A stretch of DNA of 64,000 nucleotides from Curtobacterium flaccumfaciens pv. betae (GTDB lineage: Bacteria; Actinomycetota; Actinomycetes; Actinomycetales; Microbacteriaceae). The first letter of the stretch is position 1, and the number at the start of each line of letters is the position of its first letter. Under the pieces are notes generated by a model. That model had not been told where the DNA came from. It saw nothing but the letters and a program-made list of their open reading frames with translations, and did not search any database. Positions 1 through 63,067 of the stretch are shown here, one piece after another. Made by a program: the position numbers and the translations under genes. The stretch spans positions 1,054,001-1,118,000 of the forward strand of contig NZ_JAPJDC010000001.1 in assembly GCF_026241855.1 (NCBI RefSeq). Reading direction: 5' to 3'.

Positions 1-860
1 ACGCCGGAGCCGTCGGTCATGGCGGCGGTCCGGGTGCCGAGCGACCCGTCGGTGACCACCTTGAACGGCCCCATCGTGAGCAGGCCCCGCGTGCCGTCGA
101 CCACGTCGCCGGTGCGCAGCCCCCGGGCGACGGCCTCGTCGAGCTCGGCCGGGTACACCCCGGACGCGACCCGGATCGCGTCGGTGCCGGCGTGGATCCG
201 GCGGCGCCAGCGGTCGAGCCCGAAGCGCATCTCGAGGTCGACCACGCCCGTCACCCCGCGGGCCGCCGCGGCCTCGGCAGCGTCCGCCACGTAGGCGTCG
301 AGCAGGTCGTCCGGCACCTGCGACAGCGCACCGGTCACGTCGAACGCGTCCTGCTCGCGCAGGACCCCGTCCTCGCCCGCCTCGAGCGGGCGGCCGACAG
401 CAGCCGAGAAGTGCGCGAGCGCGAGGGCGTTGCACCACACCGCGTGCAGGTCCGCGCTGATCACGACGACCGGGAGGCCCGGTGCGGCACGGTCGAGCAG
501 CTCGCGTCGTGCCGGGCGCGGCCACATCCCGTCGCGGTAGCCGTGTCCGACCAGGACGCGGTCCGCCACGCCCGCCCGCGCGACGGCGGCGAGCAGGTCG
601 GCGGTCGCCTCGGCGGAGTCGCAGCCGGTGACGTCGACACGGCGGCGGACGAGAGCCCACTGGTCGAAGTGCGTGTGGTGGTCGCGGAGCCCCGGGCCGA
701 GCCAGGCGCCGGCGGCCTCGACCACGTCGGTGTCGACGCTCGTGGGGTCGAGCGTGCCGGTCGGCGCGATCTCGGTGACCAGCCCGTCGACGACGCGGAC
801 GTCGGCAGGGGCCCCGGAGGTGCCCACCCGCCGGACGGTGCGGAGCAGGATGTCCGTCAC
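1..860 (-). CDS. Amidohydrolase family protein (YtcJ-like), 3' end beyond the window
   Basis: The frame runs leftwards from a GTG at 860 and is still open at base 1 (286 codons visible). Residues 60-66 read DHHTHFD, giving the HxH metal pair (H62, H64) of amidohydrolases. Further on are DLHAVWCN and, near residue 270, FKVVTDGSLGTRTAAM, the Lys and Asp-Gly-Ser-Leu-Gly region typical of the YtcJ / COG1574 branch. The family hydrolyses amide or related bonds at a metal centre in a TIM barrel; the substrate cannot be read from sequence. The GTG start overlaps the TGA of the upstream PaiB-like gene by four bases, so the two are probably translationally coupled. Confidence 0.75.
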   Translation of the reverse strand, partial: MTDILLRTVRRVGTSGAPADVRVVDGLVTEIAPTGTLDPTSVDTDVVEAAGAWLGPGLRDHHTHFDQWALVRRRVDVTGCDSAEATADLLAAVARAGVADRVLVGHGYRDGMWPRPARRELLDRAAPGLPVVVISADLHAVWCNALALAHFSAAVGRPLEAGEDGVLREQDAFDVTGALSQVPDDLLDAYVADAAEAAAARGVTGVVDLEMRFGLDRWRRRIHAGTDAIRVASGVYPAELDEAVARGLRTGDVVDGTRGLLTMGPFKVVTDGSLGTRTAAMTDGSG

Positions 861-1516
861 CGTCCCTCCAGGCCGCTCATCGGGGACGGGACCGGCCGGA
901 CCCGCTCGACCTCGTCGGCGAGCGCCGGCGACGCGTAGGGGCCGTCGCCCCGCAGCCCGGCGACGATGCGGTCGATCACCTCGGGAGCCTTGTTCTGCGA
1001 CAGCTTGGCGCGGGCGTCGAACCGGGTGACGCGGATCCGGATGCCGACGGTGCCCTTGGCCATCCGGCGGGCGGTCTCCTCGTCGATCTGCAACGACACG
1101 GGCGACGGCATGACCCGCTCGAAGTGGTCGACGAGTTCGCCGAGCACCCGGAAGTTCTCGTCGTCGGACAGGATCTCGGGGGTGCCCCAGACGTGGGCGG
1201 TGACGTGGTTCCAGGTGGGCACGAACTGCTCCGGCGGGTACCAGGCGGGGGAGACGTAGCCGTGCGGGCCCTGGAACACGACGAGGACCTCGTGCCGTCC
1301 GAGTTCGTGCGCGACCTCGTCGGGACGGCCGACGTGGGACACCAGGACGAGGGCGTCCGGGTCGTCGTCGGGGCCGGGGGCCTCGAGCAGCACCGGGTAG
1401 TGCGAGGCGACCAGCCCGGCCTCGGTGTGGGACACGATCGTCGCCCACGGGTTCCCGGTGATGAGGCGTCGGACCTCGTCGACGTCGGTCATCAGGAAGT
1501 GCGGTGTGTGGCGCAT
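857..1516 (-). CDS. FMN-binding negative transcriptional regulator (PaiB family)
   Basis: The 219-residue protein starts MRHTPHFLMTDVDEVRRLI and continues GNPWATIVSHTEAGLVASHYPVLL, the split-barrel flavin-binding fold of Bacillus PaiB-type proteins. I took the ATG at 1516 rather than one six codons upstream because family members begin at this M-x-x-x-P-x-F segment. It has WNHVTAHVWG in the middle and an RMAKGTVGIRI stretch late, both usual for the family. Family members are described as repressors or FMN-binding proteins. Here it is the first gene of a two-gene unit with the amidohydrolase. Whether it regulates anything is unknown. Confidence 0.8.
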   Translation of the reverse strand: MRHTPHFLMTDVDEVRRLITGNPWATIVSHTEAGLVASHYPVLLEAPGPDDDPDALVLVSHVGRPDEVAHELGRHEVLVVFQGPHGYVSPAWYPPEQFVPTWNHVTAHVWGTPEILSDDENFRVLGELVDHFERVMPSPVSLQIDEETARRMAKGTVGIRIRVTRFDARAKLSQNKAPEVIDRIVAGLRGDGPYASPALADEVERVRPVPSPMSGLEGR

Positions 1517-1695
1517 GTTCCGAGCGTGGCACAACGGGCCCGGTCGCGCGACGGGTGTCGTTTCGTCAGTGTTTCTGCGCGGTAAAACTCTCAGAGCGCA
1601 TTGAAAGAAGTCTTGTGATCGGGATTCGAACCGTCATAGCTTTCCCACCACGACGACCGGGCAGGGATCCGGCCGCACCCGATCGAGGAGAGATC

Positions 1696-3282
1696 ATGCG
1701 ACGCAGGACGATCGCCGCGCTGGCCGCGGCGGCAACCTTGGCACTGGTGGCGACCGGCTGTTCGGCGGGCGGCGCGGCCGACGACGACGCTCCCTCGAGC
1801 CTGGTCTACGCGACCGGCGAGCCCGACCACCTGACCCCGGGCCGGCAGACCGTGGCCTTCGATCAGGTGATGAGCGTCTTCGCGCCGCTGACCCAGACCG
1901 ACGCCGACGGTGACCTGCACGACGTCGCGGCGAAGAGCGTCGAGAGCGACGACGCCACCACCTGGACGATCACGCTGCGGGACGGCTGGACGTTCCAGAA
2001 CGGCGAGGCCGTCACGCCGGAGAGCTACGTGAAGGCGTGGAACCACGTCGCCTACGGCCCGAACGCGTGGGAGAACAGCGGTCAGCTCGCCGGGATCGTC
2101 GGGTACACCGACCTCAACCCGGCGAAGGGCACCCCGAAGACCAAGGAGATGTCGGGACTCAAGGTCACCGGCAAGGACACCTTCACGGTCACGCTCACCC
2201 ACGCGGACAGCCAGTTCCCCCTGCAGCTCAGCCAGGCCCAGACGGCGTTCTACCCGATGCCCGAGGCCGCGTACGACGACCTGAAGGCGTACGACAAGAA
2301 GCCGATCGGCAACGGCCCGTACGAGATGACGAAGGCGTGGAAGGCGGACCAGGAGTTCACCGTCACGGCCTGGAAGGACTACGAGGGCACGAAGCCCGCC
2401 ACCGACGAGGTGACCTTCCGCAGCTACTCCGACATGAACACCGCGTACACCGACGTCCTGGCCGGCAACGCCGACGTGCTGTTCCTGCCGACCGACAAGA
2501 TGACGAGCGCGAAGGCCGACTTCGGCGACCGCCTGCACTCCTTCGACGCCCCCGGCATCGACTACCTCGGGTTCCCGCTGTGGGACGACCGGTACTCCGA
2601 CCCCGACGTGCGCCGCGCGATCTCGATGTCGATCGACCGTGACGAGGTCAACGACGCGATCTACGGCGGCCTGTACGACCCCGCCACCGCGCTGACCCCA
2701 CCGTCGATGTCCGGCACCGAGGAGGGCATCTGCGGCGACGCCTGCGAGTTCGACCCGGCAGCGGCGAAGAAGCTCCTCGCCAGCGCCGGCGGGTTCGACG
2801 GCACCATGACGCTCGTCTACCCGGGCGGCACCGGCCTCGACTCCCTGTACGAGGCGTACGCCAACCAGATCCGGCAGAACCTGGGCGTCGACGCCGAGGC
2901 GAAGGCCACCACCGACTGGGCGTCCTACTACTCGGAGCTCACGGACAAGACCGTCGCCGGCCCGCACTTCGGCCACTGGGGCGCGCTGTACATCAGCCAG
3001 CAGAACACGCTCCGCGCGCTGTTCACCACGGCCGGCGGCTGCTCCCCGTGCACCGGCTACTACCAGTCCGACGACGTCGACTCGCTGCTCGCGAAGGCCG
3101 ACTCCGCCGGGTCCCAGGACGAGGCGAACGGGTACTACACGAAGACGCAGGAGGCGGTCCTGCAGGACTTCCCGATCGTCCCGACCTTCTTCGACAAGTA
3201 CTCGTACGTCACGAGCGACAAGATCGCGAAGCTGCCGGCGGTGGCGGGCAGCCCCGTGATCGCCCAGATCGCCGTGAAGTAG
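1696..3282 (+). CDS. Peptide-type ABC transporter substrate-binding lipoprotein (SBP family 5)
   Basis: The 528-residue protein captures a substrate outside the membrane for the importer encoded downstream. The N-terminus MRRRTIAALAAAATLALVATGC is a lipoprotein signal with lipobox VATGC, so the mature protein should be lipid-anchored at its Cys. The body has the family 5 pattern (LTQTDADGDLHDVAAKSVE..., GNGPYEMTKAWKADQEFTV, DPDVRRAISMSIDRDEVNDAIYGG) found in Dpp/Opp binding proteins. I chose the ATG at 1696 because GAGGAG lies just upstream and the signal peptide begins there. It is the first gene of a seven-gene operon, so peptides or peptide-like compounds are the likely cargo. Confidence 0.9.
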   Translation: MRRRTIAALAAAATLALVATGCSAGGAADDDAPSSLVYATGEPDHLTPGRQTVAFDQVMSVFAPLTQTDADGDLHDVAAKSVESDDATTWTITLRDGWTFQNGEAVTPESYVKAWNHVAYGPNAWENSGQLAGIVGYTDLNPAKGTPKTKEMSGLKVTGKDTFTVTLTHADSQFPLQLSQAQTAFYPMPEAAYDDLKAYDKKPIGNGPYEMTKAWKADQEFTVTAWKDYEGTKPATDEVTFRSYSDMNTAYTDVLAGNADVLFLPTDKMTSAKADFGDRLHSFDAPGIDYLGFPLWDDRYSDPDVRRAISMSIDRDEVNDAIYGGLYDPATALTPPSMSGTEEGICGDACEFDPAAAKKLLASAGGFDGTMTLVYPGGTGLDSLYEAYANQIRQNLGVDAEAKATTDWASYYSELTDKTVAGPHFGHWGALYISQQNTLRALFTTAGGCSPCTGYYQSDDVDSLLAKADSAGSQDEANGYYTKTQEAVLQDFPIVPTFFDKYSYVTSDKIAKLPAVAGSPVIAQIAVK

Positions 3283-3290: not shown

Positions 3291-4685
3291 ATGGAGCAGC
3301 ACACCGTCCTCGACCTGGTCCGCGACGTCCCCGACCGCGACGGCTTCCCGCTCGTCGACGACCTGCACACCCGGTTCGCCGCGCTCGCCGCGGCGCACCC
3401 GGACCGGGTCACGGTCACCCGGATCGGCACGAGCCGCCTCGGCGAACCCCTGCACAGCTACCGCATCGGCACCGGGTCGCACGCGGCCGTCGTGGTCGGC
3501 GGGGTGCACCCGAACGAGCCGATCGGTTCGTGGACGGCGCTGCACCTCGCCGAGACGGCCCTCGGTGACGAGCGGGTGGCCGGGCTCGACGTCACCTGGC
3601 ACATCGTCCCGACGATCGACCCGGACGGCATGCGGCTCAACGAGGCGTGGTTCCACGACCCGCACGACCGGGTCTTCTACTCGCGGCACTTCTACCGGCC
3701 CGCTCCGGACAGCCAGGTCGAGTGGACGTTCCCGAACAGCTACAAGTCGGTGTACTTCGACCAGGTGCTGCCCGAGACGCTCGCGTTCATGCGGCTCATC
3801 GACGACACCGAGCCGGACCTGCTCGTGAGCCTGCACAACGGCGAGATGGGCGGCGTCTACTACTACCTGTCCGAGGACCTGCCCGACGTCGTCGACACCC
3901 TGCACGCGGTGCCGGCCGCACTCGGGCTGCCGCTCGACACCGGGGAGCCGGAGTCCCCGTACCTGCGGGAGCTCGCCCCTGCGGTGTTCGCGATGGACGG
4001 CATCGAGACGGCGTACGCCTACCTCGAGGAGCTCGGCGTCGACCCCGGCGAGCACATCCACGGCGGGTCGAGCGCGGCGTGGGCGATGCGCCACGGCGCC
4101 CTCTGCATGGTGGCCGAGCTGCCGTACTGGAGCCACCCCGACGCCGACGACCCGACCCCGACCGACGAGTCGTACGCCGACCTGCTCCGCCGGTGCGCGG
4201 ACGAGCTCGGTGCCTCGGGTGCGGAACTGCAGGCGTTCCTCGACGAGGCGTCCCCGATGCTCTCGATCCCGTCCCCGTTCGTCGAGGCCTCCCGGGCGTT
4301 CGTCCCGATGCTCGTCGGCATGGCGGACACCGACCGCCGCCGGGCCGAGCGGGAACCGGCCGACCGCACGGCCACCGTCGCGGAGCGCTTCGGCTGCGAG
4401 GACCTCGTCCGCTGCTTCCGCCTGCGCTACGGCGGCATGCTCCTGCGTGCCGTCGAGGCGGAGACGGCCGCCGGCACGGCGTCCGCGCCGCTCCGGCGGC
4501 TCCGCGACCGCCTGGCCGAGCGGTACGCGCACTGGCAGGCGGACGCGTCGACGGGTGCGCAGCCGATCCCGGTGGGGAAGCTCGTGGGCGTGCAGTACGG
4601 GGCGATCCTCGCCTGCGCGGCGCACGTGGCGGACCCGACCCGCGCCTCCCGTCCGGTGTCGGCGGCCGTGTCGGGAGACGCGTGA
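3291..4685 (+). CDS. M14-family zinc carboxypeptidase
   Basis: The 464-residue protein has no signal peptide and should act in the cytoplasm on imported peptides. GGVHPNEPIGS gives the zinc ligands H73 and E76, and SLHNGEMGG gives a third ligand, H182. AELPYW contains E276, a plausible catalytic Glu. It starts eight bases after the binding-protein gene, and its TGA shares one base with the next ATG. Close to its C-terminus (DNA 4636-4655) is a copy of the dispersed GGAGGC motif, read as RASRP. M14 enzymes remove C-terminal residues or cleave amide caps; specificity is not readable. Confidence 0.82.
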   Translation: MEQHTVLDLVRDVPDRDGFPLVDDLHTRFAALAAAHPDRVTVTRIGTSRLGEPLHSYRIGTGSHAAVVVGGVHPNEPIGSWTALHLAETALGDERVAGLDVTWHIVPTIDPDGMRLNEAWFHDPHDRVFYSRHFYRPAPDSQVEWTFPNSYKSVYFDQVLPETLAFMRLIDDTEPDLLVSLHNGEMGGVYYYLSEDLPDVVDTLHAVPAALGLPLDTGEPESPYLRELAPAVFAMDGIETAYAYLEELGVDPGEHIHGGSSAAWAMRHGALCMVAELPYWSHPDADDPTPTDESYADLLRRCADELGASGAELQAFLDEASPMLSIPSPFVEASRAFVPMLVGMADTDRRRAEREPADRTATVAERFGCEDLVRCFRLRYGGMLLRAVEAETAAGTASAPLRRLRDRLAERYAHWQADASTGAQPIPVGKLVGVQYGAILACAAHVADPTRASRPVSAAVSGDA

Positions 4686-7998: not shown

Positions 7999-8528
7999 CC
8001 GACGACCGGCTGCTCGGACCGGAGCGCCAGGCGTTCGTCGAGGAGTTCGCCCTGATGCTCAACGACGGCGCGGGCATGCCCCTCACCGACGCCCGGGTGC
8101 TCGGCTACCTGATGATGACCCGCGCACCACACTCGTCGTCGTCCGACCTGCAGGCAGCGCTCGGTGCCAGCTCGGGGTCGGTGTCGATGGCCACCCGGCG
8201 GCTCGTCGACTCCGGGTTCGTGAAGCGCCACATCGTCCCCGGCGAGCGCAGTCACTACTTCCGTGCCGAGGCCGACGTCTGGGGCTCCTGGCTCGCCAGT
8301 GAACGGAAGTACCTCGACCGGCAGCGCGACATCATCGGCCGCGGGCTCGCCGTCGTCGAGGGTGCCGGCCGCACCGGCACGGGCGACGTGGACGCCGAGG
8401 TCCGCGAGCGCCTGCTCAACGGCCGCGACTACATGCAGTGGCTGCAGGGCTACCACCGCAAGATGCTCGAGGAGTGGGAAGCCTTCAAGGCCGCCCGCGA
8501 CGACACCGACCCCCCGGAGACCCCATGA
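7995..8528 (+). CDS. MarR/GbsR-type transcriptional regulator
   Basis: The 177-residue protein carries a winged helix: LTDARVLGYLMMTRAPHSSSSDLQAALGASSGSVSMATRRLVDSGFVKR, followed by the wing HIVPGERSHYFRAE. The C-terminal part is helical and probably dimerises. The GTG start overlaps the upstream TGA, and its own TGA overlaps the ATG of the ATPase gene. It is therefore embedded in the transporter operon and most likely controls it, although no operator was identified. Confidence 0.85.
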   Translation: MTDDRLLGPERQAFVEEFALMLNDGAGMPLTDARVLGYLMMTRAPHSSSSDLQAALGASSGSVSMATRRLVDSGFVKRHIVPGERSHYFRAEADVWGSWLASERKYLDRQRDIIGRGLAVVEGAGRTGTGDVDAEVRERLLNGRDYMQWLQGYHRKMLEEWEAFKAARDDTDPPETP

Positions 8529-10186
8529 GCGGCACCACCGACGTCCTGACCGTCGAGCACCTCACCGTCACCTTCGACGTCGACGGCGAGGTCGTCCGCG
8601 CCGTCGACGACGCCTCGTTCACCGTCGCCCGGGGCGAGGTCGTCGCGGTCGTGGGGGAGTCCGGCTCCGGCAAGAGCATGACCGCGATGACCGCGATGGG
8701 CATCGCCCCCGACGGTGCGCGCGCCTCGGGGAGCATCCGGCTCGGCGACCTCGAGGTCATCGGCACCGACGAGCGCACCCTCCGGTCGGTCCGGGGCCGC
8801 AGCGTGTCGATGATCTTCCAGGACCCGTCCGCGGCGCTGAACCCGGTGTTCACCATCGGGTTCCAGCTCGCCGAGGCCGTCCGACGCACCGACGGCCCGC
8901 ACGACCGCGCCGCCGTCCGGGAGCGCTCGCTCGAGCTGCTCCGCGCCGTGGAGGTCCCCGAACCCGAACGCCGCCTGGGCCAGTACCCGCACGAACTCTC
9001 CGGCGGACAGGCCCAGCGCGTGATGATCGCGATGGCGCTCGCCGCCGACCCGGACCTGCTCATCGCGGACGAGCCGACGACCGCCCTCGACGTCACCGTG
9101 CAGGCCGAGGTGCTCGACGTCCTCCGCGCGCTGCGCGAGCGCACCGGCACCGCGATCCTGCTCATCACCCACGACATGGGCGTCGTCGCGGACCTCGCCG
9201 ACCGCGTGGTCGTGATGCGCCGCGGACGCGTCGTCGAGACCGGCACCGCAGCGGCGGTCTTCGCCGCACCGTCCGCCGACTACACGCGGGAACTCCTCGC
9301 TGCGGTCCCGCGGATGGGCACCGGGTCCGGCCAGGAGGCCCGGCTCGGCTCCGCCACGGAGCCCCCGGCCGCCGTGCTGGACGTCCGGCACCTCGTGGTC
9401 GAGTACGGCGGCGCCCTGCGCGGGCGCTTCCGTGCCGTCGACGACGTGTCGTTCACCGTCGGCCGTGGCGAGATCGTCGGCCTGGTGGGAGAGTCCGGCA
9501 GCGGCAAGACCACCATCGGCCGGGCCGCGGTCGGCCTCGCGCCGATCACCTCGGGCTCGGTGGTCGTCGACGGCACCGACGTCGCCGGCGCACGACGAGC
9601 CGCGCGCCGGCAGATGCGCCAGCACGTCGGCGTGGTGTTCCAGAACCCGCTCCGGTCGCTCAACCCCCGGTACACGGTCGGGCAGACCGTCGCCGAGCCG
9701 CTCCGCCAGATCCTCCGGCTGCCGGCGGTGCAGGTCGAGGAGCGGGTCGAGCGGCTCCTCGCCGACGTCGGTCTCGACGGCGGCTACGCCGAGCGCTACC
9801 CGCACGAACTCTCCGGTGGCCAACGGCAACGCGTCGCGATCGCCCGAGCGGTGGCCCTCGACCCCGCGCTCCTGATCGCCGACGAGCCGACGAGTGCGCT
9901 CGACGTGTCGGTGCAGGCCCGCGTGCTCGACGTGTTCCGCGAGCTGCAGGAGCGCCTCGGGTTCGCGTGCCTGTTCGTCACGCACGACCTCGCCGTGGTC
10001 GACACCCTGTGCGACCGGGTCGTCGTGCTGCACGGCGGCCGGGTCGCCGAACACGGGACGTGCGATGCCATCCTGCGCTCGCCCCAGGACCCGTACACAC
10101 GACGGCTCATCCAGGCCGCCCCGGTGCCGGACCCCGGGGAGCAGGCACGCCGACGCTCCGAGCGCCTGGCGGCCCGCGCAGGCTGA
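8525..10186 (+). CDS. Fused double ATPase of the peptide ABC transporter (DppD-DppF type)
   Basis: Two complete ABC domains lie in one 553-residue chain. Domain 1 has GESGSGKS, LSGGQAQR and LLIADEPTTALD; domain 2 has GESGSGKT, LSGGQRQR and LLIADEPTSALD. It energises the two permeases at 4685-6507. The linker between the domains contains SGQEARLGS, encoded by a copy of the dispersed GGAGGC motif at 9327-9348. It is the last gene of the operon and stops 18 bases before a convergent gene. Confidence 0.93.
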   Translation: MSGTTDVLTVEHLTVTFDVDGEVVRAVDDASFTVARGEVVAVVGESGSGKSMTAMTAMGIAPDGARASGSIRLGDLEVIGTDERTLRSVRGRSVSMIFQDPSAALNPVFTIGFQLAEAVRRTDGPHDRAAVRERSLELLRAVEVPEPERRLGQYPHELSGGQAQRVMIAMALAADPDLLIADEPTTALDVTVQAEVLDVLRALRERTGTAILLITHDMGVVADLADRVVVMRRGRVVETGTAAAVFAAPSADYTRELLAAVPRMGTGSGQEARLGSATEPPAAVLDVRHLVVEYGGALRGRFRAVDDVSFTVGRGEIVGLVGESGSGKTTIGRAAVGLAPITSGSVVVDGTDVAGARRAARRQMRQHVGVVFQNPLRSLNPRYTVGQTVAEPLRQILRLPAVQVEERVERLLADVGLDGGYAERYPHELSGGQRQRVAIARAVALDPALLIADEPTSALDVSVQARVLDVFRELQERLGFACLFVTHDLAVVDTLCDRVVVLHGGRVAEHGTCDAILRSPQDPYTRRLIQAAPVPDPGEQARRRSERLAARAG

Positions 10187-11528: not shown

Positions 11529-11578
11529 AGGAGGACCGGATCACGCACCGCCGTCGGCGGACGTGATCCGGGCCTCCT
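11529..11578. terminator. Bidirectional terminator hairpin
   Basis: Arms 11529-11545 and 11562-11578 pair over 17 bases with one mismatch, between the convergent 50-residue gene and the EamA gene. The right arm, read on the minus strand, contains AGGAGGCCCGG, a copy of the dispersed motif. A short T-rich run (TCTTCGTT) follows. Confidence 0.75.
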
Positions 11579-11584
11579 CTTCGT

Positions 11585-18404: not shown

Positions 18405-19283
18405 ATGCGTGCGAACCGCTGGTACACGCCCTGGTTGCTCGTCCTGCCGGCACTGATCTGGCTCGTCGCGTTCAGCCTGTGGCCCTCGATCAACACGGTC
18501 CGGTTGTCGTTCACGAACGCCAGCCCGCTCGGCGGCGTCAGCCAGTGGGTCGGGGTCAAGAACTTCGAGACCCTGCTCGCTGACCCGCAGGTGTGGGAGG
18601 CGCTGCTCAACAGCGTCATCTACATGGCGGTGTGCCTGCCGCTGCTGACGGTCCTCCCGCTCCTCATCGCGGTGCTCGTGCAGCAGAAGCTGCCCGGGAT
18701 CGCGTTCTTCCGCACCGCGTTCTACACGCCGGTCATCGCGTCCGCGGTGGTCGTCGGGCTCATCTGGACGTGGATCCTCGATGACCGCGGCGTCATCAAC
18801 GAGATGGCGCAGGCCCTCGGCGTCGTGCAGGGCAGCGTCCCGTTCCTGACCGACCGCTGGCTGCTGCTCCTCAGCGCCATCAGCCTGACGGTGTGGAAGG
18901 GGCTCGGCTACTACATGATCATCTTCCTGGCCGCCCTCGGGAACGTCGGCAAGGACCTGCACGAGGCCGCCGCGCTCGACGGCGCCGGCGCGGTCCGTCG
19001 CTTCTGGTCGGTCACGATGCCCGGGGTCCGCGGCACCATGACGCTCGTCGGGATCCTGGTGTGCGTCTCCGCGCTCCGGGTGTTCAGCGAGCTCTACATC
19101 CTCACCAACGGCACCGGCGGGCCCGGCGGGCAGGACAACTCCCTCGTCATGCTCATCCAGCAGTACGCCCGCGGCTTCACCGGCAACCTCGGTTACGCGT
19201 CCGCCCTGAGCCTCCTGCTCTTCGTCGTGACGCTCGTGCCGATGCTCGCCCTCGCCCGGATGAACAGCAAGGCGGACAAGTGA
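18405..19283 (+). CDS. Sugar ABC transporter permease, MalF/UgpA type
   Basis: The 292-residue protein has about six membrane helices. LPALIWLVAFSLWPSINTVRLSFTN forms the typical first helix, and HEAAALDGAGAVRRFWSVTMPGVRGT is the EAA loop. An AGGGAGG-like site precedes the ATG. Its TGA overlaps the GTG of the next permease. No ATPase gene follows, as in many actinobacterial sugar importers that share one MsiK-like ATPase. Confidence 0.92.
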   Translation: MRANRWYTPWLLVLPALIWLVAFSLWPSINTVRLSFTNASPLGGVSQWVGVKNFETLLADPQVWEALLNSVIYMAVCLPLLTVLPLLIAVLVQQKLPGIAFFRTAFYTPVIASAVVVGLIWTWILDDRGVINEMAQALGVVQGSVPFLTDRWLLLLSAISLTVWKGLGYYMIIFLAALGNVGKDLHEAAALDGAGAVRRFWSVTMPGVRGTMTLVGILVCVSALRVFSELYILTNGTGGPGGQDNSLVMLIQQYARGFTGNLGYASALSLLLFVVTLVPMLALARMNSKADK

Positions 19284-36645: not shown

Positions 36646-36655
36646 AGCGGACGGA

Positions 36656-36691
36656 CGGGAGGCCCGTGGCGGCGCCGCCACGGGCCTCCCG
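36656..36691. terminator. Perfect 36-base palindromic terminator after the TetR gene
   Basis: Both arms carry CGGGAGGCCCGTGGCGGC, a dispersed-motif copy, in perfect inversion. It lies 19 bases downstream of the TetR gene stop on the minus strand. Confidence 0.8.
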
Positions 36692-36709
36692 ACCGCCCCG
36701 CGTCGCGTG

Positions 36710-43179: not shown

Positions 43180-43238
43180 ACGGCCAGGAGGCCCGGTGCA
43201 CGTTCCGCCTCGGAACGCGCCCCGGGCCTCCTGGCCGT
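43180..43238. terminator. Terminator after the MFS gene built from two motif copies
   Basis: Arms starting ACGGCCAGGAGGCCCGG pair with their inverse over about 28 bases with two mismatches around a GCCT loop. Both arms carry the dispersed motif. Confidence 0.85.
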
Positions 43239-44992: not shown

Positions 44993-45888
44993 CGCGCGGC
45001 CCCGGTCCGTCGGATCGCGCGGCCGAGCACGGTGACGGCGGTCGCGAGCACCACGATCGCGAGTCCGGGGAAGGTGCTCATCCACGGCGCGGTCTGCAGG
45101 TACGTGCGACCGTCGGCGAGCATCGCGCCCCACTCCGGCGCGGGCGGGGGCGTGCCGACCCCGAGGTAGCTCAGCGCCGAGGCCCACACGACCGCCTGCC
45201 CGACCCCGAGCGTGGCGACGGCGACGACGGGCCAGAGCGCCGTCGGCAGCACGTGCCGGACCACGGTGCGGGCGGGGGAGCGGCCGAGCAGCACCGCCGT
45301 CTCGACCACCTGCGAACTCCGGGCGGCCCGGACCAGGCCGCGCACGATCCGGGCGTAGCCGGGAGCGGTCGCGAACCCGACCGCGAGCACCGCCGGCACC
45401 GGACCCGGACCGGTCACGGCGATGACGACCAGGGCGACGAGCAGCAGCGGCAGGGCGAACGCGACCTCGGTGACGCGGCCGATGACGGCGTCGAGCAGGC
45501 GTCCGGGTCGTCCGGCCCCGGCACCGAGTCCGGCGACGACGCCGAGCAGGACGCCCACGCCGCCGCCGATCAGGGTCGCGGCGACGCCGACGACGAGCGA
45601 TGCCCGGGTCCCCGCGACCACCCGTGCCAGGACGTCGCGTCCGGACTCGTCAGTGCCGAACGGGTGCGCGCCGCTGGGCGCAGCCAGGGCGTCTGCGGGG
45701 TGCACCGCGAGCGGATCCCCGCCGCCGAGCAGGGCGGGCCACGCCGCTGCCACGACGGCGACCAGGACGATCACCCCCGCGGCGATGCCGCCGGCGCCGA
45801 GCGTCCCCCCACGGACGCGCTCGGTGCCGGCGGCGGTCTGGTGGCCGGGCACTCCGGTCTGGAGGCCCGGGTCGGCGATCCCGCTCAC
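44989..45888 (-). CDS. Peptide ABC transporter permease, DppC type (second system)
   Basis: The 299-residue protein has the HPFGTDESGRDVLARVVAGTR box, an EAA-like loop with SQVVETAVLLGRSPARTVVRHVLP, and the C-terminal region SALSYLGVGTPPPAPEWGAML typical of DppC. The GTG start overlaps the upstream permease stop. A dispersed-motif copy at 45859-45881 encodes part of the N-terminal tail (DPGLQTG). Confidence 0.9.
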   Translation of the reverse strand: MSGIADPGLQTGVPGHQTAAGTERVRGGTLGAGGIAAGVIVLVAVVAAAWPALLGGGDPLAVHPADALAAPSGAHPFGTDESGRDVLARVVAGTRASLVVGVAATLIGGGVGVLLGVVAGLGAGAGRPGRLLDAVIGRVTEVAFALPLLLVALVVIAVTGPGPVPAVLAVGFATAPGYARIVRGLVRAARSSQVVETAVLLGRSPARTVVRHVLPTALWPVVAVATLGVGQAVVWASALSYLGVGTPPPAPEWGAMLADGRTYLQTAPWMSTFPGLAIVVLATAVTVLGRAIRRTGAAR

Positions 45889-49176: not shown

Positions 49177-49238
49177 ACCGACCGTCGGTCTGGAGGCTCG
49201 TGGCGGTCTGGCACCGCGCCTCCCGTCCGCCGGTCGGT
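49177..49238. terminator. Imperfect hairpin with two motif copies after the TetR gene
   Basis: ACCGACCG and CGGTCGGT close an imperfect stem. Its arms contain TCTGGAGGCTCGTGGCGG and the inverse CCGCGCCTCCCG, both versions of the dispersed motif. Confidence 0.65.
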
Positions 49239-50666: not shown

Positions 50667-53600
50667 GTGCCGTACCCGTTGAACGCCGATGCCGATGGCG
50701 TCGTCCCCTCGCCGAGCTTCCCCGCCGTCGAGCGGGGCATCCTCGCCTTCTGGAAGCGCGACGACACGTTCCAGGCGTCCATCGACGCGCGACAGGGCTG
50801 CCCGGAGTGGACCTTCTACGACGGCCCGCCGTTCGCAAACGGCCTGCCGCACTACGGGCACCTGCTGACCGGGTACGCCAAGGACGTCTTCCCGCGCTAC
50901 CAGACCATGCGCGGCAAGCAGGTGCACCGCCGCTTCGGCTGGGACACCCACGGCCTGCCCGCGGAGCTCGAGGCGATGCGCCAGCTCGGCATCACCGAGA
51001 AGCACGAGATCGACGCCATGGGCATCGACGTCTTCAACGCCGCCGCCAAGAAGTCCGTGCTGCAGTACACCGACGAGTGGCAGGAGTACGTCACCCGCCA
51101 GGCGCGCTGGGTCGACTTCGAGGACGACTACAAGACCCTCGACGTCACCTTCATGGAGAGCGTGCTCTGGGCGTGGAAGCAGCTCTGGGACAAGGGTCTG
51201 GCGTACGAGGGCTTCCGGGTCCTGCCGTACTGCTGGAACGACCAGACACCGCTGTCCAACCACGAGCTGCGCATGGACGACGACGTCTACAAGATGCGCC
51301 AGGACCAGTCCGTCACCGTCTCGTTCCCGCTGCACGGCTCGCGCGCGGACGCGCTCGAGGTCACCGGCGTGCGGGCACTCGCCTGGACGACGACCCCCTG
51401 GACCCTCCCGACGAACGCCGCCCTGGCCGTCGGTCCGGAGATCGCGTACGCGGTCGTGCCGGCAGGGCCTGGAGGCGCGGCTGACGGTGCCGACGCCGGT
51501 TCCGTCTCCTACCTGCTGGCTTCGGACACCGTGGCCGCGCACGCGAAGGAGCTCGGCTACGCCTCGGGTGACGAGGCGCGCGCCGCCGTCGCGCGCACGC
51601 TGACGGGCGCCGAGCTCGACGGCGTCGAGTACGAGCGTCTGTTCGACCACCTGGCCGACCAGGAAGGGTACGAGAACGCTTGGCGAGTACTGGTCGCCGA
51701 GTACGTCGAGACCGGTGAGGGCACCGGCATCGTGCACCAGGCCCCGGCGTACGGTGCCGACGACCAAGAGGTCTGCGCCGCCGCCGGCATCCCCGTGGTG
51801 CTGTCCCTCGACGAGGGCGGCGTCTTCACGTCGCAGTTCGGCGAGGTCGCCGGCATGCTCTGGTCGGACGCGAACAAGCCGCTGACGAAGGCCGTCCGCG
51901 ACGCCGGGCGACTGCTCCGCCAGGCGTCCTACGAGCACAGCTACCCGCACTGCTGGCGCTGCCGGAAGCCCCTCATCTACAAGGCCGTCTCGTCGTGGTT
52001 CGTCCGCGTCACCGAGCTCCGCGACCGCATGGGTCAGCTCAACCAGGACATCAACTGGGTGCCGGACAACGTCAAGGACGGCCAGTTCGGCAAGTGGGTG
52101 GGCAACGCCATCGACTGGTCGGTCTCGCGCAACCGCTACTTCGGCACGCCGATCCCGGTGTGGCAGTCCGACGACCCCGAGTACCCGCGCACCGACGTGT
52201 ACGGCTCGCTCGCCGACATCGAGCGCGACTTCGGTCGCCTGCCGGTGAACGCCGAGGGTGAAGTGGACCTGCACCGGCCGTTCATCGACGACCTGACGCG
52301 GCCGAACCCCGACGACCCCACGGGTAACTCGACGATGCGCCGGATCACCGACGTGTTCGACGTGTGGTTCGATTCCGGGTCGATGCCGTACGCCCAGGTG
52401 CACTACCCGTTCGAGAACCGCGAATGGTTCGAGTCGCACAGCCCGGCCGACTTCATCGTCGAGTACATCGGGCAGACGCGCGGCTGGTTCTACGTCATGC
52501 ACGTGCTCTCCACCGCGCTGTTCGACCGGCCGGCGTTCCAGAACGTCATCAGCCACGGCATCGTCCTCGGCTCGGACGGCCAGAAGATGTCGAAGTCGCT
52601 CCGGAACTACCCGGACGTCTCCGAGGTCTTCGACCGCGACGGCGCCGACGCCATGCGCTGGTTCCTGATGTCCTCGTCGGTGATCCGCGGCGGCAACCTC
52701 GTCGTCACCGAAGAAGGCATCCGCCAGGGCGTCCGCGAGTTCATGCTGCCGCTGTGGTCGACGTACTACTTCTTCACCCTGTACGCGAACGCCTCGGGTC
52801 CCGACGGCTACCGGGCCCAGCGCCGGACCGACTCGACCGACGTGCTCGACCGGTACCTGCTCGCGAAGACCCGGGTCCTCGTCACCGACGTCCGGACGCA
52901 CCTCGACGCCCTCGACACCCCGCTCGCGGCCCAGGCCGTCCGCGACTTCGCCGACGTGCTGACGAACTGGTACGTCCGCCGCTCGCGCGACAAGTTCTGG
53001 ACCGGGGCCGACGCGGACGCCGGAGCCGAGACCCGTGCGGCGTTCGACACGCTGTACACCGTGCTCGAGACCCTGACCCGGGTCGCCGCCCCGCTCGCGC
53101 CGCTCGTCACCGAGGAGATCTGGAAGGGCCTGACCGGCGGGCGCAGCGTCCACCTGACGGACTTCCCCGACCCCGAGGAGTTCCCCGCCGACGACGCCCT
53201 CGTCGACGCGATGGACCGTGTGCGCGACGTCGCCTCGAAGGGCCTGGCGCTCCGCAAGGCCACCGGCAAGCGCGTCCGCCTGCCCCTGGCCACCCTGACC
53301 CTGGTGGTACCGGACCCGGCCGCGGTCGAACCGTTCGCCGACATCCTGCGCGACGAGCTCAACGTCAAGCGCGTGGTGCTCGAAGCCCAGGCCGAGGAGT
53401 CGCTGGCGCAGTACGGCATCGAGCGGAAGCTCACCGTGAACGCCCGCGTCGCCGGCCCCCGCATCGGCAAGCAGGTGCAGCAGGTGATCCCGGCCGCCAA
53501 GAAGGGCGACTGGACCGCGACCGACTCCGGCGTGACCGTCGGCGGCGTCGACCTGATCGAGGGCGAGTACTCGCTCGACCTCACCGTGGCTGACGCCTCG

Positions 53601-53924
53601 GTGGCCGTGGCGTTCCTCGACGAGGGCGGCTTCGTCGTGCTCGACACCGTGACCACGCCCGAGCTCGAGGCCGAAGGGCTGGCCCGCGACGTCGTCCGCG
53701 CCGTCCAGCAGGCCCGCCGCGACGCCGACCTCGACGTCAGCGATCGCATCACCCTGACCCTCCGGGTGGACGACACGGCCGACGGCGCGGTCCGTACGCA
53801 CCAGGAGCTCATCGCGGGGGAGACCCTGGCGACGAGCGTCGAGATCGAGCCCCTCGGGGCGGACGACACCACCACCGACGTCGGTGACGGTGCGAAGGTA
53901 TCCGTGGAGGTAGCACGCGCATGA
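50667..53924 (+). CDS. ileS: Isoleucyl-tRNA synthetase
   Basis: The 1085-residue class I synthetase has the HIGH motif [11 protein letters not shown], the WDTHGLPAE segment, the editing domain ([13 protein letters not shown]) and the KMSKS motif [11 protein letters not shown]. The GTG start at 50667 follows AAGGA. A dispersed-motif copy at 51461-51483 encodes GPGGAADG within the editing region. The gene overlaps folC by four bases and is under T-box control. Confidence 0.97.
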
Positions 53925-55414
53925 GTGACGACGACCAGTACGACGGACACGAGGCGAACGAGGAGTTCGTCGGACACGACGAGTTCGACGGTCGCGACGA
54001 GGACGGCATCCGGATCCCGGTCGGCCCCTCCGGAGACGCTCCAGCCGACGCCGTGCCCTACGGCGGCGACGACGACGAGGTCCGCCGCGTCGAGGCCGCC
54101 CTGTACGCCCGCATCGGCGAACAGGCCCCCGAGCGCCGGCTGACGGCCACCCGCCGCGCCGTCGAGCTGCTCGGCGACCCGCACCTGGCGTACCCGGTGA
54201 TCCACGTGACGGGCACGAACGGCAAGACGTCGACCGCGCGCACCATCGAGAGCATCGTCCGGGCACACGGTCTGCGCACCGGTCTGATGACGAGCCCGCA
54301 CCTGGTGTCGATCCGGGAACGCATCGTGGTCGACGGCCAGCCGATCGCGGCGGACCGGTTCGTCGAGAACTGGGACGACATCGCCCCGGTGCTCGAGATC
54401 ACCGACCGCGAGCTCGCCGACAAGGGTGAACTCCCGCTGACCTTCTTCGAGGCGCTCACCGTGCTCGCCCTGGCGTGCTTCGCCGAGGCACCGGTGGACG
54501 TCGCCGTGATCGAGGTCGGGATGGGCGGCGAGTGGGACTCCACCAACGTCGTGCAGAGCCAGGTGTCGGTGTTCACGCCGATCGCCATCGACCACGCGAA
54601 GCAGCTCGGTGCCACCGTGGCCGAGATCGCCCGCACCAAGTCGGGCATCGTCAAGCCGTCGTCCGCCGTGGTGTCGAGCCGACAGGTCCCCGAGGCCCTC
54701 GCCGAACTCGAGCGCGCCGCCGAGCTCACCGAGTCCACCCTGGCCGTCGAGGGCACCGGGTTCAGCGTCGTCGACGTCACCCCGGCCGTGGGCGGACAGC
54801 TCATCACCGTGCAGGGCATCGCCGGCCGCTACGACGACCTGTTCCTGCCGCTGTTCGGCCGGCACCAGGCCGAGAACGCCGCCGTGGCGATCGCGGCGGT
54901 CGAGTCGTTCCTCGGCCGCGGGGCCCAGGCCCTCGACGAGGACGTCCTGTCCGAGGGCATCGCCGGCACGACCAGCCCCGGTCGCCTGCAGCCCATCGTG
55001 ACCGACCCGACCGTCGTCGTCGACGCCGCGCACAACCCGCACGGTGCGAAGGCCCTGGCCGAGGCGCTGCCGGTGGCGTTCCCGTCCGAGCACGTCGTCG
55101 GCGTCGTCGGGATCCTCGGCGACAAGGACGCCCGCGGGTTCGTCCGCGCGCTCAAGGACACCGTCGCGACGTTCGTCGTGACGCAGCCGCCGGGGGAGCG
55201 GGCGCTCGACGCGGACGAGTTCGCCCGTGTCGTCGTCGACGAGGTCGGCGAGGACCGCGTCGTCGTCGAGCCGTCCCTGGCCTCCGCACTGCAGGAAGCG
55301 CGCAGCCTGGCCGACGAGGCGGATGCCGAGGACGCCCTCGTGCTCGTCGCGGGCTCCATCGTGATGGTGGGCGCGGTCATGGACCTCGTGCACCGCGAGG
55401 GCGAGGCGAAGTGA
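53921..55414 (+). CDS. folC: Folylpolyglutamate / dihydrofolate synthase
   Basis: The 497-residue protein has an acidic, poorly conserved N-terminal extension of about 50 residues. The Mur-ligase-type P-loop [10 protein letters not shown], the [11 protein letters not shown] folate loop, [12 protein letters not shown] and [12 protein letters not shown] follow. It adds glutamate to folates. The ATG overlaps the ileS stop, and its TGA overlaps the next GTG. Confidence 0.95.
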
Positions 55415-55827
55415 CGGACGCACCACGGGCCTCCCGGCCGGGCCGCGCACCGCGCACCCGGAAGCCGCGCCGCGAGCGCGGGGCGCAGGAGAGCCTGCTC
55501 TCGATCACGCTGGTGCTCGAGGCGATCATGTTCTTCTTCCCCATGCTCGTCGTCTTCGGCAAGGGCACGCTGCCGCCCGCCGCGGCCTTCGGTGGCGGCA
55601 TCGGCGCGATCATCGTCCTCGCAGCTGCCTCACGTCTGACGGGCAACCGGGCCGGTGTATGGTTCGGGTGGCTGCTGCAGGCGGCCATCCTCGCCACCGG
55701 GTTCATCGAACCGTTCATGTTCGCGGTCGCCGTGGTGTTCCTGGCGCTGTGGGTCTTCTGCTTCGTCAAGGGCGGTCAACTGGACCGTCAGAACGCCGCG
55801 CGCCGAGCGGCCATGGGCGAGGACTGA
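55411..55827 (+). CDS. DUF4233 small membrane protein
   Basis: The 138-residue protein has an Arg-rich N-terminus (including RASRPGRAPR from a dispersed-motif copy) and about four helices starting LVLEAIMFFFPMLVVFGKG. It ends FVKGGQLDRQNAARRAAMGED. The position between folC and ndk is conserved in actinobacteria. The function is unknown. Confidence 0.85.
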   Translation: MTDAPRASRPGRAPRTRKPRRERGAQESLLSITLVLEAIMFFFPMLVVFGKGTLPPAAAFGGGIGAIIVLAAASRLTGNRAGVWFGWLLQAAILATGFIEPFMFAVAVVFLALWVFCFVKGGQLDRQNAARRAAMGED

Positions 55828-58713: not shown

Positions 58714-59060
58714 GCGGTCATCATCGCATGCGGGTTCCGGTGCTTTCCGGGTGCGGCATGCGATAATGCCTGGAGGTCGTGCGGCCAACCGCACACCGAA
58801 GAGAGCTTTCCGAGTGACGCCCCACCGGGCCGAACCCGGACGATCAGGTGCGGTGAGAGCGCACTGTGGTCGGGCAGCGTCACTCCGACGCCGAGCCGGA
58901 CCGGGCCGGGTGCCCGGACCGGAACGGGCGCGGACGCAACGAGAAGTTGACGCGGACCGATCACGAGACAGCGAGCGCGGGGGCGTCGACGCCGCCCGCC
59001 ACGACACAGAATTCCCGCCACCCGAAAGGGTGCGAGTGGGGCCGAGGAGTGCACCAGTCC
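58714..59060 (+). promoter_or_regulatory. Long leader upstream of rne
   Basis: This 347-base gap contains GATAAT at 58762-58767, a good -10, and a small hairpin GTGCGG-CCAA-CCGCAC at 58779-58794. The message would have about 290 untranslated bases. E. coli rne is autoregulated through its long 5' UTR, and the same may happen here. No gene is evident. Confidence 0.45.
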
Positions 59061-62039
59061 ATGGTGGAGCAGAACAACGACAACACGACCAACGACGAGA
59101 ACGCGCCGAAGCGCCGGAGCCGCCTGTTCGGCGGTCGCCGCGCCCGGTCGTCCGGCCAGGAGGCCCGTGGGAGCGCCGAGCAGGCACCCCACGCCGACGA
59201 GACCCTCGCGCTGACGGGCGGCGCTGACGCCCGTCCCGCGGCCAGCGTCGCGTCGGCCGGTTCGCCGGACTCTCCCGATTCGCCGGACTCGCCCGACTCC
59301 CCGGCCTCGCCGGCGTCGCCCGTCGAGCCGACCGACACCGGGGCGGTCTCCGTCGCGGTCGAGGCCGTCGCCGACAGCGGTGCCGAGCCGCACGACGTGA
59401 GCACGCTGACCGGTGACCTGCCGGTCGTGACGGGCGACCAGTCGGCGACCGCGACCGACGGGGCGGACGCGGACCGCGCCTCCCGTCCGGCCGATGCCGC
59501 ACCGAAGGCCGAGGCGAGCGACGACGCAGCACCCGCCGACGAGCCGTTCGTGCCGAAGGCCACGAGCACGCTCAGCCTGATCTTCCACGCGCCGGTGCTG
59601 CCGGAGCTGCCGCAGCGCGCGCCCCGGTTCGAGCGCGACCGCGATCGTGACCGTGACCGTGACGAGGACGACCGCTACGACCGCGAGGACCGGTTCGACC
59701 GCGATCGCGACCGTGACGACCGCGACGACCAGGGCGGCTCGCGCCGTCGCTCGCGTCGCCGTGGTTCGAGCGCCGACCGCGAGGCCCGCGAGCCGCGCGA
59801 CCACCAGGAGCCGCGCCGCCGCGAGCCGGAGCTCATCACCGAGCCGCAGCGCATCAAGGGCTCGACCCGGCTCGAGGCGAAGAAGCAGCGCCGTCGTGAC
59901 GGCCGCGATGCCGGACGCCGCCGTCAGGTGGTCAGCGAAGACGAGTTCCTCGCCCGCCGCGAGAGCGTCGACCGCCAGATGATCGTCCGCTCCAGCTCGT
60001 CGACGATCGAGATCGGCGTGCTCGAGGACGGCATCCTCGCCGAGCACTACATCACCAAGTCCGAGAACGTGTCGCTCATCGGCAACGTCTACCTCGGCAA
60101 GGTGCAGAACGTCCTGCCCTCGATGGAGGCGGCGTTCGTCGACATCGGTCGTGGCCGGAACGCCGTGCTCTACGCCGGTGAGGTCGACTGGAACTCCGTC
60201 GAGACCGGCAACCACGGTCGCCGCATCGAAGCAGCGCTCAAGCCGGGCGACAAGGTCCTCGTGCAGGTCACGAAGGACCCGGTCGGCCACAAGGGTGCCC
60301 GCCTCACCAGCCAGATCTCGCTGCCGGGTCGCTACCTGGTCTACGTGCCGAACGGCTCGATGAACGGGATCTCGCGCAAGCTGCCGGACACCGAGCGTGC
60401 CCGACTGAAGAAGATCCTGAAGGAGGTCCTGCCGGAGCACGCGGGCGTCATCGTGCGCACCGCTGCCGAGGGTGCGACCGAGGAGCAGCTCACCCGCGAC
60501 GTGCAGCGCCTGACCAGCCAGTGGGAGGCCATCCAGAAGAAGGTCGCCGGTGGCCACGCCCCGGTGATGCTGCACTCCGAGCCCGACCTGCTCATCAAGA
60601 TCGTCCGCGACGTCTTCAACGAGGACTTCACGAAGCTGATCATCGACGGCGAGGCCGCCGGCGGCACCATCGACGAGTACCTGTCGGCCGTCGCCCCGGA
60701 CCTCAAGGACCGCGTCGTCCGGTACGAGGGCCCCGACTCCTTCGAGGAGTTCCGCCTCAACGAGCAGATCGACAAGGCGCTCGACCGCAAGGTCTGGCTG
60801 CCCTCCGGTGGTTCGCTCGTCATCGACCGCACCGAGGCCATGACGGTCGTCGACGTCAACACGGGCAAGTTCGTCGGGTCCGGCGGCAACCTCGAGGAGA
60901 CGGTCACGAAGAACAACCTCGAGGCCGCCGAGGAGATCGTCCGGCAGCTCCGCCTGCGGGACATCGGTGGCATCATCGTCGTCGACTTCATCGACATGGT
61001 GCTCGAGGAGAACCGCGACCTCGTGCTCCGCCGCCTGGTGGAGTGCCTGAGCCGCGACCGGACGAAGCACCAGGTCGCCGAGATCACCTCGCTCGGCCTC
61101 GTGCAGATGACCCGCAAGAAGATCGGTGTCGGTCTGCGCGAGTCCCTCGACGAGGTCAACGCCAAGATCAACGACAACAACGCCGACCCGGGCCCGAGCA
61201 AGGGTCGCCGCAAGGGCCGTGGCGGGAACGGCAACGAGAACGGCCGGTCCGGCAACGGCGGGAACGGCGGCAACGGCAACGGGAACTCCGGTTCGTCGGG
61301 GTCGTCGGGGCCGTCGCACGGCGCGTCCAGCCAGGCGCACCAGATCACGGACGACGTGAAGAACGCGCTGTCGCGGATCGCCGCCTCGACCCTGTCGCAC
61401 GACGAGCAAGAGGCAGCGGCGGCTGCCGTGACCGCGACGGAGACCACGGCACCGTCGTCGGCCGACGCGTCGATCGGCACGGACAGCACGGGTGGCGAAC
61501 AGCCGACCGGCTCGAAGCGTCGTCGTCGTGGCCGTGGAAGCCGCGGGGGAGACCAGCAGAACAGCGACCAGCAGACCGGCGACCAGCAGGCTGCCGCGCA
61601 GGCCGAGGTCGCCGAGCAGTCGGACGCACCTGAGTCCTCGGCCACCGCCGAGCCCGCCGTGGTCGTCGAGTCCGAGGCGCGCGCGCCGAAGGCCGCTGCT
61701 CCGGCCGTCACGGAGCCCGCTGCCGCACCGAAGGCGAAGGCCCCGGCCCGTCGTCGCGTGAGCTCGAGCGCCACCGTGACCCCGACCGACAACACCGTCG
61801 CGATCCTGGACATCCCGATCGCCGCGGCGCCCAAGCGCGAGCCGCGCGCGGTCGCCCCGGACGCCGAGTCCCTGCTCGACTCGGTGCTCCAGGCGCTCCC
61901 GGAGCCGAAGCAGCCCGGACAGGGGCGCTCGCGTTCCCGCCGCGTCTCGTCGCCGAGCATCAGCGCTCCAGCCACGCCGACGGAGGAGCCGACCGACGAC
62001 GCCGACGGCTCCGACGGCACAGTGATCCTGGGGAACTGA
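59061..62039 (+). CDS. rne: Ribonuclease E/G family endoribonuclease
   Basis: The protein is 992 residues. A disordered N-terminal region of about 300 residues includes SPDSPDSPDSPDSPASPASP and a run of Arg-Asp repeats. The S1 domain (GNVYLGKVQNVLPSMEAAFVDIG), 5'-sensor and catalytic region with DFIDM and VDVNTGKF follow. A Gly/Asn- and Ala/Pro-rich tail closes it. Two dispersed-motif copies (QEARG, DRASRP) lie in the N-terminal arm. It processes and degrades RNA. The ATG at 59061 is chosen; a GTG at 59049 is possible. Confidence 0.93.
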   Translation: MVEQNNDNTTNDENAPKRRSRLFGGRRARSSGQEARGSAEQAPHADETLALTGGADARPAASVASAGSPDSPDSPDSPDSPASPASPVEPTDTGAVSVAVEAVADSGAEPHDVSTLTGDLPVVTGDQSATATDGADADRASRPADAAPKAEASDDAAPADEPFVPKATSTLSLIFHAPVLPELPQRAPRFERDRDRDRDRDEDDRYDREDRFDRDRDRDDRDDQGGSRRRSRRRGSSADREAREPRDHQEPRRREPELITEPQRIKGSTRLEAKKQRRRDGRDAGRRRQVVSEDEFLARRESVDRQMIVRSSSSTIEIGVLEDGILAEHYITKSENVSLIGNVYLGKVQNVLPSMEAAFVDIGRGRNAVLYAGEVDWNSVETGNHGRRIEAALKPGDKVLVQVTKDPVGHKGARLTSQISLPGRYLVYVPNGSMNGISRKLPDTERARLKKILKEVLPEHAGVIVRTAAEGATEEQLTRDVQRLTSQWEAIQKKVAGGHAPVMLHSEPDLLIKIVRDVFNEDFTKLIIDGEAAGGTIDEYLSAVAPDLKDRVVRYEGPDSFEEFRLNEQIDKALDRKVWLPSGGSLVIDRTEAMTVVDVNTGKFVGSGGNLEETVTKNNLEAAEEIVRQLRLRDIGGIIVVDFIDMVLEENRDLVLRRLVECLSRDRTKHQVAEITSLGLVQMTRKKIGVGLRESLDEVNAKINDNNADPGPSKGRRKGRGGNGNENGRSGNGGNGGNGNGNSGSSGSSGPSHGASSQAHQITDDVKNALSRIAASTLSHDEQEAAAAAVTATETTAPSSADASIGTDSTGGEQPTGSKRRRRGRGSRGGDQQNSDQQTGDQQAAAQAEVAEQSDAPESSATAEPAVVVESEARAPKAAAPAVTEPAAAPKAKAPARRRVSSSATVTPTDNTVAILDIPIAAAPKREPRAVAPDAESLLDSVLQALPEPKQPGQGRSRSRRVSSPSISAPATPTEEPTDDADGSDGTVILGN

Positions 62040-62862: not shown

Positions 62863-62875
62863 GCCCGCCCGCGGC

Positions 62876-62977
62876 CCCTCGCACGGTGCGAGGCCCCCGC
62901 CGACCCGTGCGAGGTTCCGTACTCGGTGCGCCCGTCTCCGCGTCGCACGGAGTACGGAACCTCGCACCGTTCGCGCG
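62876..62977. repeat. CCTCGCAC/GTGCGAGG palindromic element, copy C
   Basis: CCTCGCACGGTGCGAGG is followed by GTGCGAGGTTCCGTACTCGG pairing with CGGAGTACGGAACCTCGCAC. The edges match copies A and B. It lies between convergent genes in a 205-base gap that also holds one dispersed-motif copy near 63040-63051. Confidence 0.75.
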
Positions 62978-63067
62978 GCCCTGCGGCCCTGCGAGCCGGC
63001 GACGCGCCGTGGGAGGTGCCGCGCGGGGCGGACCCGAACCGGGCCTCCCGGCCGCCCTGACGCGCTG

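Follow-up and report, generated by a model that had tools for sequence, protein, structure and literature searches.

The stretch of Curtobacterium flaccumfaciens pv. betae DNA analysed here (64,000 nucleotides; hereafter the window) spans positions 1,054,001 to 1,118,000 of a 3.70 Mb contig, in a genome of two contigs with 3.78 Mb in total. It carries, within genes and between them, a short dispersed motif that we scored as CGGNCDGGAGGCVCG, a word of 15 nt with 12 fixed bases and loose positions 4, 6 and 13, which can also be written CGG-H-C-D-GGAGGC-N-CG. An M3 peptidase encoded in the window has 98% identity to its counterpart in Curtobacterium flaccumfaciens LMG 3645 and 94–97% to those of three further Curtobacterium records, in agreement with a Curtobacterium near C. 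flaccumfaciens. The window has 22 sites with at most one mismatch (14 exact, 8 with one mismatch), compared with 2.9 expected from 100 dinucleotide shuffles, whose maximum was 8, and the genome has 676 exact copies, compared with a single copy of the reversed pattern. The consensus CGGnC-[AGT]GGAGGC-[CGA]CG, proposed in an earlier note on this DNA, is therefore correct, and the motif is firmly established as a repeated genome-wide signal.

With gene boundaries taken from our own codon-based gene calls (coding fraction 0.86), eight exact single sites in the window lie in genes. The site at 4641–4655 (−), close to the 3′ end of gene 3291–4685 (+), is also found in the Curtobacterium genome G009, which was used for comparison. 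Those at 9328–9342 (+), within gene 8525–10186 (+), and 20823–20837 (+), within gene 20257–21654 (+), each have a weak partner arm at 29 nt, with 3 and 4 mismatches, respectively, and the second occurs in G009 too. The site at 38985–38999 (+) stands in a conserved stretch of gene 38709–41303 (−), that at 45855–45869 (+) is close to the start of gene 44989–45888 (−), and that at 55426–55440 (−), again shared with G009, is close to the start of gene 55411–55827 (+). Gene 59049–62039 (+) holds two sites, one close to its start at 59153–59167 (+), which differs at two bases in G009, and one at 59475–59489 (−), which is not in G009. A ninth exact single site, 63040–63054 (−), is intergenic and not in G009. 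The remaining four of the 13 single sites listed in the earlier note have one mismatch when any base is permitted at position 13: 467–481 (+) within gene 3–860 (−), 19376–19390 (−) within gene 19280–20257 (+), 31920–31934 (−), with T at base 13, between called genes, and 51465–51479 (+) within gene 50667–53924 (+).

The inverted pairs that the same note had read as hairpins vary in quality. Two span 44 bp and have an arm spacing of exactly 29 nt, namely 36652–36695, an intergenic pair of exact sites flanked by two minus-strand genes, and 49186–49229, flanked by convergent genes, whose left arm has T at base 13 and whose right arm is exact. The hairpin at 43181–43237, also flanked by convergent genes, has two exact sites at a spacing of 42 nt. 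A 44-bp palindrome with the loop GTGCCAGCTGGCAC does lie at 29787–29830, with each arm two mismatches off the motif, and the hairpin at 11529–11583 is related to the motif but poorer, with one arm carrying two mismatches and the other worse. The window also contains a tRNA-Gly gene at 27828–27901 (−) and a tRNA-Pro gene at 28326–28402 (+).

Across the genome, the exact sites are divided equally between the strands (338 forward and 338 reverse). Their positions were studied in 824 kb of the main contig, consisting of the window and 38 stretches of 20 kb, which contain 170 exact sites; the positional results below refer to this sample unless stated otherwise. A count of 10-mers made without a prior motif placed pieces of CGGNCDGGAGGCVCG at the top. 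Chance and base composition are ruled out as the source of the motif by the shuffles, the reversed pattern and permuted motifs, so that the counts clearly differ from a composition expectation, equality with which the earlier note had named as grounds for giving up its proposal.

For 103 of the 170 exact sites, a second arm with at most two mismatches is found at exactly 29 nt. Such a pair makes a 44-bp palindrome, the middle of which tends to pair too, and conservation outside it is weak, consisting of a few weak outer letters. The word TGCCAGCTGGCA was considered as a separate palindrome and rejected, being the loop of many of these hairpins. When the arms were allowed at most one mismatch, 62 hairpins were obtained. 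Convergent genes flank 36 of them, tandem genes 24 and divergent genes one, and the last is inside a gene; the 437 intergenic spaces longer than 44 nt, by comparison, comprise 94 convergent, 230 tandem and 113 divergent ones. The median distance from hairpin to nearest stop codon is 22 nt, and 40 of 60 are within 60 nt. At bases 4, 6 and 13, the two arms agree in 45, 43 and 46 of the 62 hairpins, exceeding all 2000 shuffles, which indicates that the hairpins are under a pairing constraint or that the arms are homogenised. The predicted folding of four tested hairpins is −34 to −57 kcal/mol.

These properties suit an explanation in which the motif is a family of transcript-end hairpins serving termination or RNA protection, with the sequence kept by a bound protein or by gene conversion and the single sites as by-products. 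Two observations oppose it. A T-run after the 62 hairpins is not seen on average (2.1 T in 12 nt against 1.7 expected), and the sites inside genes, although fewer than the intergenic ones (33 against 137 of the 170), are greatly in excess: 300 permuted motifs gave a mean of 0.59 in-gene sites and a maximum of 7, an approximately 56-fold difference. In-gene sites with one mismatch are also in excess (55 against 17.5 for permuted motifs), and those with two mismatches are in deficit (183 against 228), so that there is a peak at the perfect word. Among the 33 exact in-gene sites, 12 run with the gene and 21 against it, all six orientation and frame classes being occupied; the earlier note had described several frames and both orientations from the window. 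Two of them are both arms of one hairpin within a gene; the other 31 have no proper second arm, and 28 of these do not have even a weak one. Since only 3 of the 31 keep a weak second arm (at most 4 mismatches at 29 nt, a condition satisfied by 0.9% of random positions), decayed hairpins were rejected as the general origin of the in-gene singles, although a few, including these three, all of which are in the window, may be of that kind. An in-gene excess without second arms is not easily explained by a terminator or a mobile palindrome, and termination alone leaves the many in-gene singles unexplained; we therefore consider the hairpin family rather unlikely as the whole account.

A mobile palindromic mini-repeat had been offered in the earlier note as an alternative. 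Repetitive extragenic palindromic (REP) elements are many palindromic intergenic units associated with a Y1-type transposase, RAYT, and a REP-like repeat or a miniature inverted-repeat transposable element could account for the palindromic 44-bp unit. It might also account for the short tandem arrays of this hairpin, with a period of about 150–210 bp, that were seen between genes in four sampled stretches (L121:4070–4629, L138:12065–12688, L140:13680–14178 and L130:13661–13901). This alternative fits badly with the single arms in genes and with the limits of conservation, which apart from the weak outer letters stops at the palindrome, so that a long mobile unit was rejected. Likewise, the Y1/RAYT transposase (PF01797) had no match in the genome, while the positive control was found in 5 of 14 genomes, and a RAYT-driven repeat was rejected on this basis. 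A mobile origin is thus very unlikely. Separately, two other words, GGGCGTACC and AGGTACGCC, recur in the intergenic DNA of the sample outside the motif, with 44 and 30 copies against 2.3 and 1.0 expected (both strands of contig 1).

The motif is restricted to one genus. Thirty-five other Curtobacterium genomes have 208–765 copies (controls 0–8), 23 genomes of other families have 0–12, and in a survey of 160 genomes of the family, three Curtobacterium genomes have 635–676 copies and the 157 of other genera 0–20. Within the genus, a dialect was observed at base 13, where several genomes with low counts of the exact motif use T, 6 of 40 in all (G012, 339 copies; G013, 421; G020, 231; G023, 259; G029, 463; G221, 303), compared with 9–89 such copies in the remaining 34. 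Counting both forms together, G012, G013, G020, G023 and G029 have 525–671 copies, which is inside the range of 355–822 in the other 30 relatives; hence, base 13 changes and copy number stays in range. The lowest relative, G008, is low in both forms (355), for which the dialect is no explanation.

The sites are also persistent. In four sequences compared with G009 (60-nt flanks mostly 50–80% identical), this genome has 27 sites, of which 13 are shared, 10 are absent and 4 are unaligned, and the reverse comparison of 30 G009 sites gave 15, 11 and 4, respectively. A wider comparison over 25 homologous Curtobacterium sequences was limited to flanks of at most 85% identity. All 12 fixed bases were preserved in 49% of 460 comparisons within genes and in 40% of 1281 between genes, whereas neighbouring control windows gave 7.8% and 7.6%. 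These comparisons are interdependent, and those within genes derive from a small number of places, among them the conserved site at 38985. Sites are either intact or lost, and most losses are in alignment gaps (32% in-gene, 39% intergenic); as the control windows are gapped as often (43% and 45%), substitution rather than insertion is a candidate origin of the copies. Conservation of the encoded protein, which the earlier note regarded as able to undo its proposal, may apply to single cases such as 38985, which is retained in 16 of 20 aligned Curtobacterium loci within a conserved protein stretch. As a side observation, AAAGCGACAG occurs 9 times in three stretches of the G009 sample (L165, L166 and L169–L181), against 0.01 expected.

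In the main rival reading, the motif is the binding site of an intracellular protein organising or anchoring the chromosome, which would bind strongly to the inverted pairs at the ends of transcripts; this is a version of the chromosome-organising signal named in the earlier note. The spread of the motif across coding and non-coding DNA and the 12 fixed bases are as expected for a protein site, and the 85 kb second contig, with 0 exact sites in 40 kb where about 8 were expected, points the same way, weakly since 4 of the 38 chromosomal 20-kb stretches are likewise empty. Fitting it less well, the sites are uneven (variance 8.3 at a mean of 4.1 per 20 kb), and the 54 unpaired sites, split 12/20 and 10/12 in the chromosome halves, show no clear orientation bias, with the origin unmapped and a flat GC skew. 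The base-13 shift moves many hundreds of sites together, though a binder could cause the same. We keep this reading as a rival and judge it unlikely. Chi and KOPS (FtsK orienting polar sequences) are signals whose orientation is biased along each replichore. A role of that kind in recombination or segregation would agree with the genome-wide spread in coding and non-coding DNA, but the orientation result just given, together with the length of the motif and its occurrence mostly in inverted pairs, makes it most improbable.

Several genes of this genome could belong to a DNA uptake route. A complete-looking type IVa pilus cluster is found at 3,497,009–3,509,574 of contig 1 (L186:3009–15574) of this single-membrane actinobacterium. 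It encodes PilO, PilM, a prepilin peptidase, PilC, a PilT-like ATPase and PilB. Also encoded are a protein resembling PilN, which scores below the Pfam cut-off, one of 631 residues to which no Pfam family was assigned, a 140-residue protein that resembles a major pilin, and two prepilin-motif proteins of 234 and 490 residues, the shorter of which narrowly misses the cut-off. A small set of Tad-like genes is situated near 2,504,000. The competence gene search took in ComEA and ComEC, and ComEA (SLBB and helix-hairpin-helix domains) adjoins ComEC. The ComEC-bearing open frame (L168:10237–13515) and a called holA-like gene of the same strand (L168:12644–13663) overlap over about 0.87 kb.

Taken together, most of these facts are covered by a reading, to which we give about even credence on the basis of sequence, in which the motif is a self-marker resembling a DNA uptake sequence, with dialects, and has been co-opted as transcript-end hairpins. 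On free DNA, the motif would be bound by a surface protein that recognises its sequence and belongs to the pilus, ComEA and ComEC route, and this binding would lead to a preference for DNA of the same lineage. Through repeated uptake and recombination, copies might then be retained and increase in number at any place that can accommodate them, as single sites within genes and in inverted pairs at the ends of transcripts. There, the 44-bp hairpin may have been co-opted as a transcript-end structure that would act in termination. The likeness to uptake sequences that the earlier note had pointed out thus holds genome-wide in the in-gene singles, the transcript-end inverted pairs, the strand equality and the restriction to one genus, the uptake function and the receptor being putative.

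Several points weigh against the uptake reading. With 137 of 170 sites intergenic and the arms covarying, hairpin function alone could hold most copies. The genome has 698 copies of both base-13 forms together, below the 1,000 or more that is usual for uptake sequences (PMC1852404). The empty 40 kb of the second contig would suit an uptake sequence, which is scarce on foreign DNA, but this support is weak given the empty chromosomal stretches, and the persistence comparisons are interdependent. The literature search, which did not extend to subscription journals and preprints, found no report of natural transformation of Curtobacterium, no title on its competence, and no paper that joins Curtobacterium with a DNA uptake sequence or Microbacteriaceae with an uptake sequence. 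Two gene-based predictors also failed in the wider family. ComEC, present in 158 of 160 genomes, is uninformative, and PilM is not supported as the determinant of CGGATGCYGC, a word of other genera described below: its enrichment across the family does not follow PilM (p = 0.10), and among genomes of at least 2.4 Mb, a ratio of 5 or more is found in 33 of 75 PilM-positive and 17 of 50 PilM-negative genomes (p = 0.35). In 40 kb each of the PilM-negative genomes G072, G082 and G092, no comparable motif was found, which has little weight as two PilM-positive genomes had none either.

Motifs of other Microbacteriaceae genera were sought by 10-mer counts in 80–300 kb samples and found on both strands of 20-kb stretches; they are leads, the positional tests having been made for Curtobacterium only. 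In whole genomes, GCGCAGGAKCCG has 117, 398 and 126 copies in genus g26 (controls 2, 12 and 15), and AGGAGGCGCGG has 487 and 634 in genus g56 (controls 22 and 16). Among 30 named loci in which the latter was counted, out of the 59 loci L052–L110, three from Frigoribacterium contain 4–6 copies per 22 kb and the other 27 have none, so that g56 is probably Frigoribacterium. The g56 motif looked codon-periodic with one seed and frame-mixed with another, and the whole-genome counts confirm its excess. The word CGGATGCYGC is raised across many genera; counts reach 2532 against 137, and the excess over the reversed control is as high as about 18-fold or more (e.g., G200, G160, G059 and G121). Its density is 8–13 copies per 22 kb in three loci from named Microbacterium, and it is at background level in Curtobacterium. 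The top 10-mers of G113 and G142 looked codon-periodic in 100 kb, but that of G142 belongs to CGGATGCYGC, which is strongly enriched across the G142 genome (670 against 55). In G121, two frame classes account for 30 of the 32 copies of CGGATGCCGC within genes, which suggests a possible contribution of codon use. For genus g68, GCAGGATCCTGC is known from 100 kb only, and some of the genomes examined, e.g., G074 and G106, have no such motif. A further word, GAGCCTGTCG, perhaps a shared hairpin arm, repeats mostly between genes in the G079 and G121 samples (L219–L223 and L239–L243), with 9 and 7 copies, of which 8 and 6 are intergenic.

As a tentative proposal, which we think doubtful at present, the Microbacteriaceae might have a family-wide system of DNA self-recognition with genus dialects around a GGA-K-S-C-like heart: CGGHCDGGAGGCNCG in Curtobacterium, AGGAGGCGCGG in a Frigoribacterium-like genus, GCGCAGGAKCCG in g26, GCAGGATCCTGC in g68 and CGGATGCYGC in Microbacterium and other genera. 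Such a system would be the third to have evolved independently, with no earlier example in Actinomycetota or among single-membrane bacteria; according to PMC12616744, only two families with uptake sequences are known. If true, this would allow the general traits of such systems to be told apart from those of two-membrane Proteobacteria, since the new case belongs to another phylum and to cells with one membrane. It would also give a new place for the receptor search, and the comparison of dialects across a large family would make it testable why such sequences evolve. If the motif does not serve uptake, there is still an unexplained signal across the chromosome, in the form of a 15-nt word found throughout the genus, both within genes and at their ends, for which no binder is known.

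Concerning known systems, inverted pairs of uptake sequences are described in terminators of Neisseria and Pasteurellaceae (PMC1852404, PMC3630211), the uptake signal sequence (USS) of Pasteurellaceae being in 17–29% of terminators (PMC1852404), and the DNA uptake sequence (DUS) of Neisseriaceae has eight dialects (PMC3630211). Pili take part in DNA uptake, and one example is the Flp pilus of Micrococcus luteus, also an actinobacterium (PMC6370729). The Curtobacterium motif resembles the DUS in being a short word on both strands, in genes and in inverted transcript-end pairs, with dialects and a type IVa pilus (PMC3630211, PMC6370729). It differs in that the word is longer (15 nt with three loose positions), has fewer copies, is mostly intergenic and has one preferred arm spacing of 29 nt, and in that the host is a single-membrane actinobacterium. 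In Neisseria, the DUS receptor is ComP (PMC6370729), whereas in Curtobacterium both the receptor and the uptake are putative. Like the USS (PMC1852404), the motif is a candidate genome-wide self-word partly in putative terminators, but its sequence and phylum differ, and its uptake role is again a candidate one.

The motif shares with REP elements the formation of many palindromic intergenic units, and is set apart from those with RAYT by the missing Y1 transposase and by its single arms inside genes. It also shares with Rho-independent terminators the position of its hairpins, a short distance past stop codons and often between convergent genes, and is distinguished from them by a fixed sequence, the missing T-run and the single in-gene copies.

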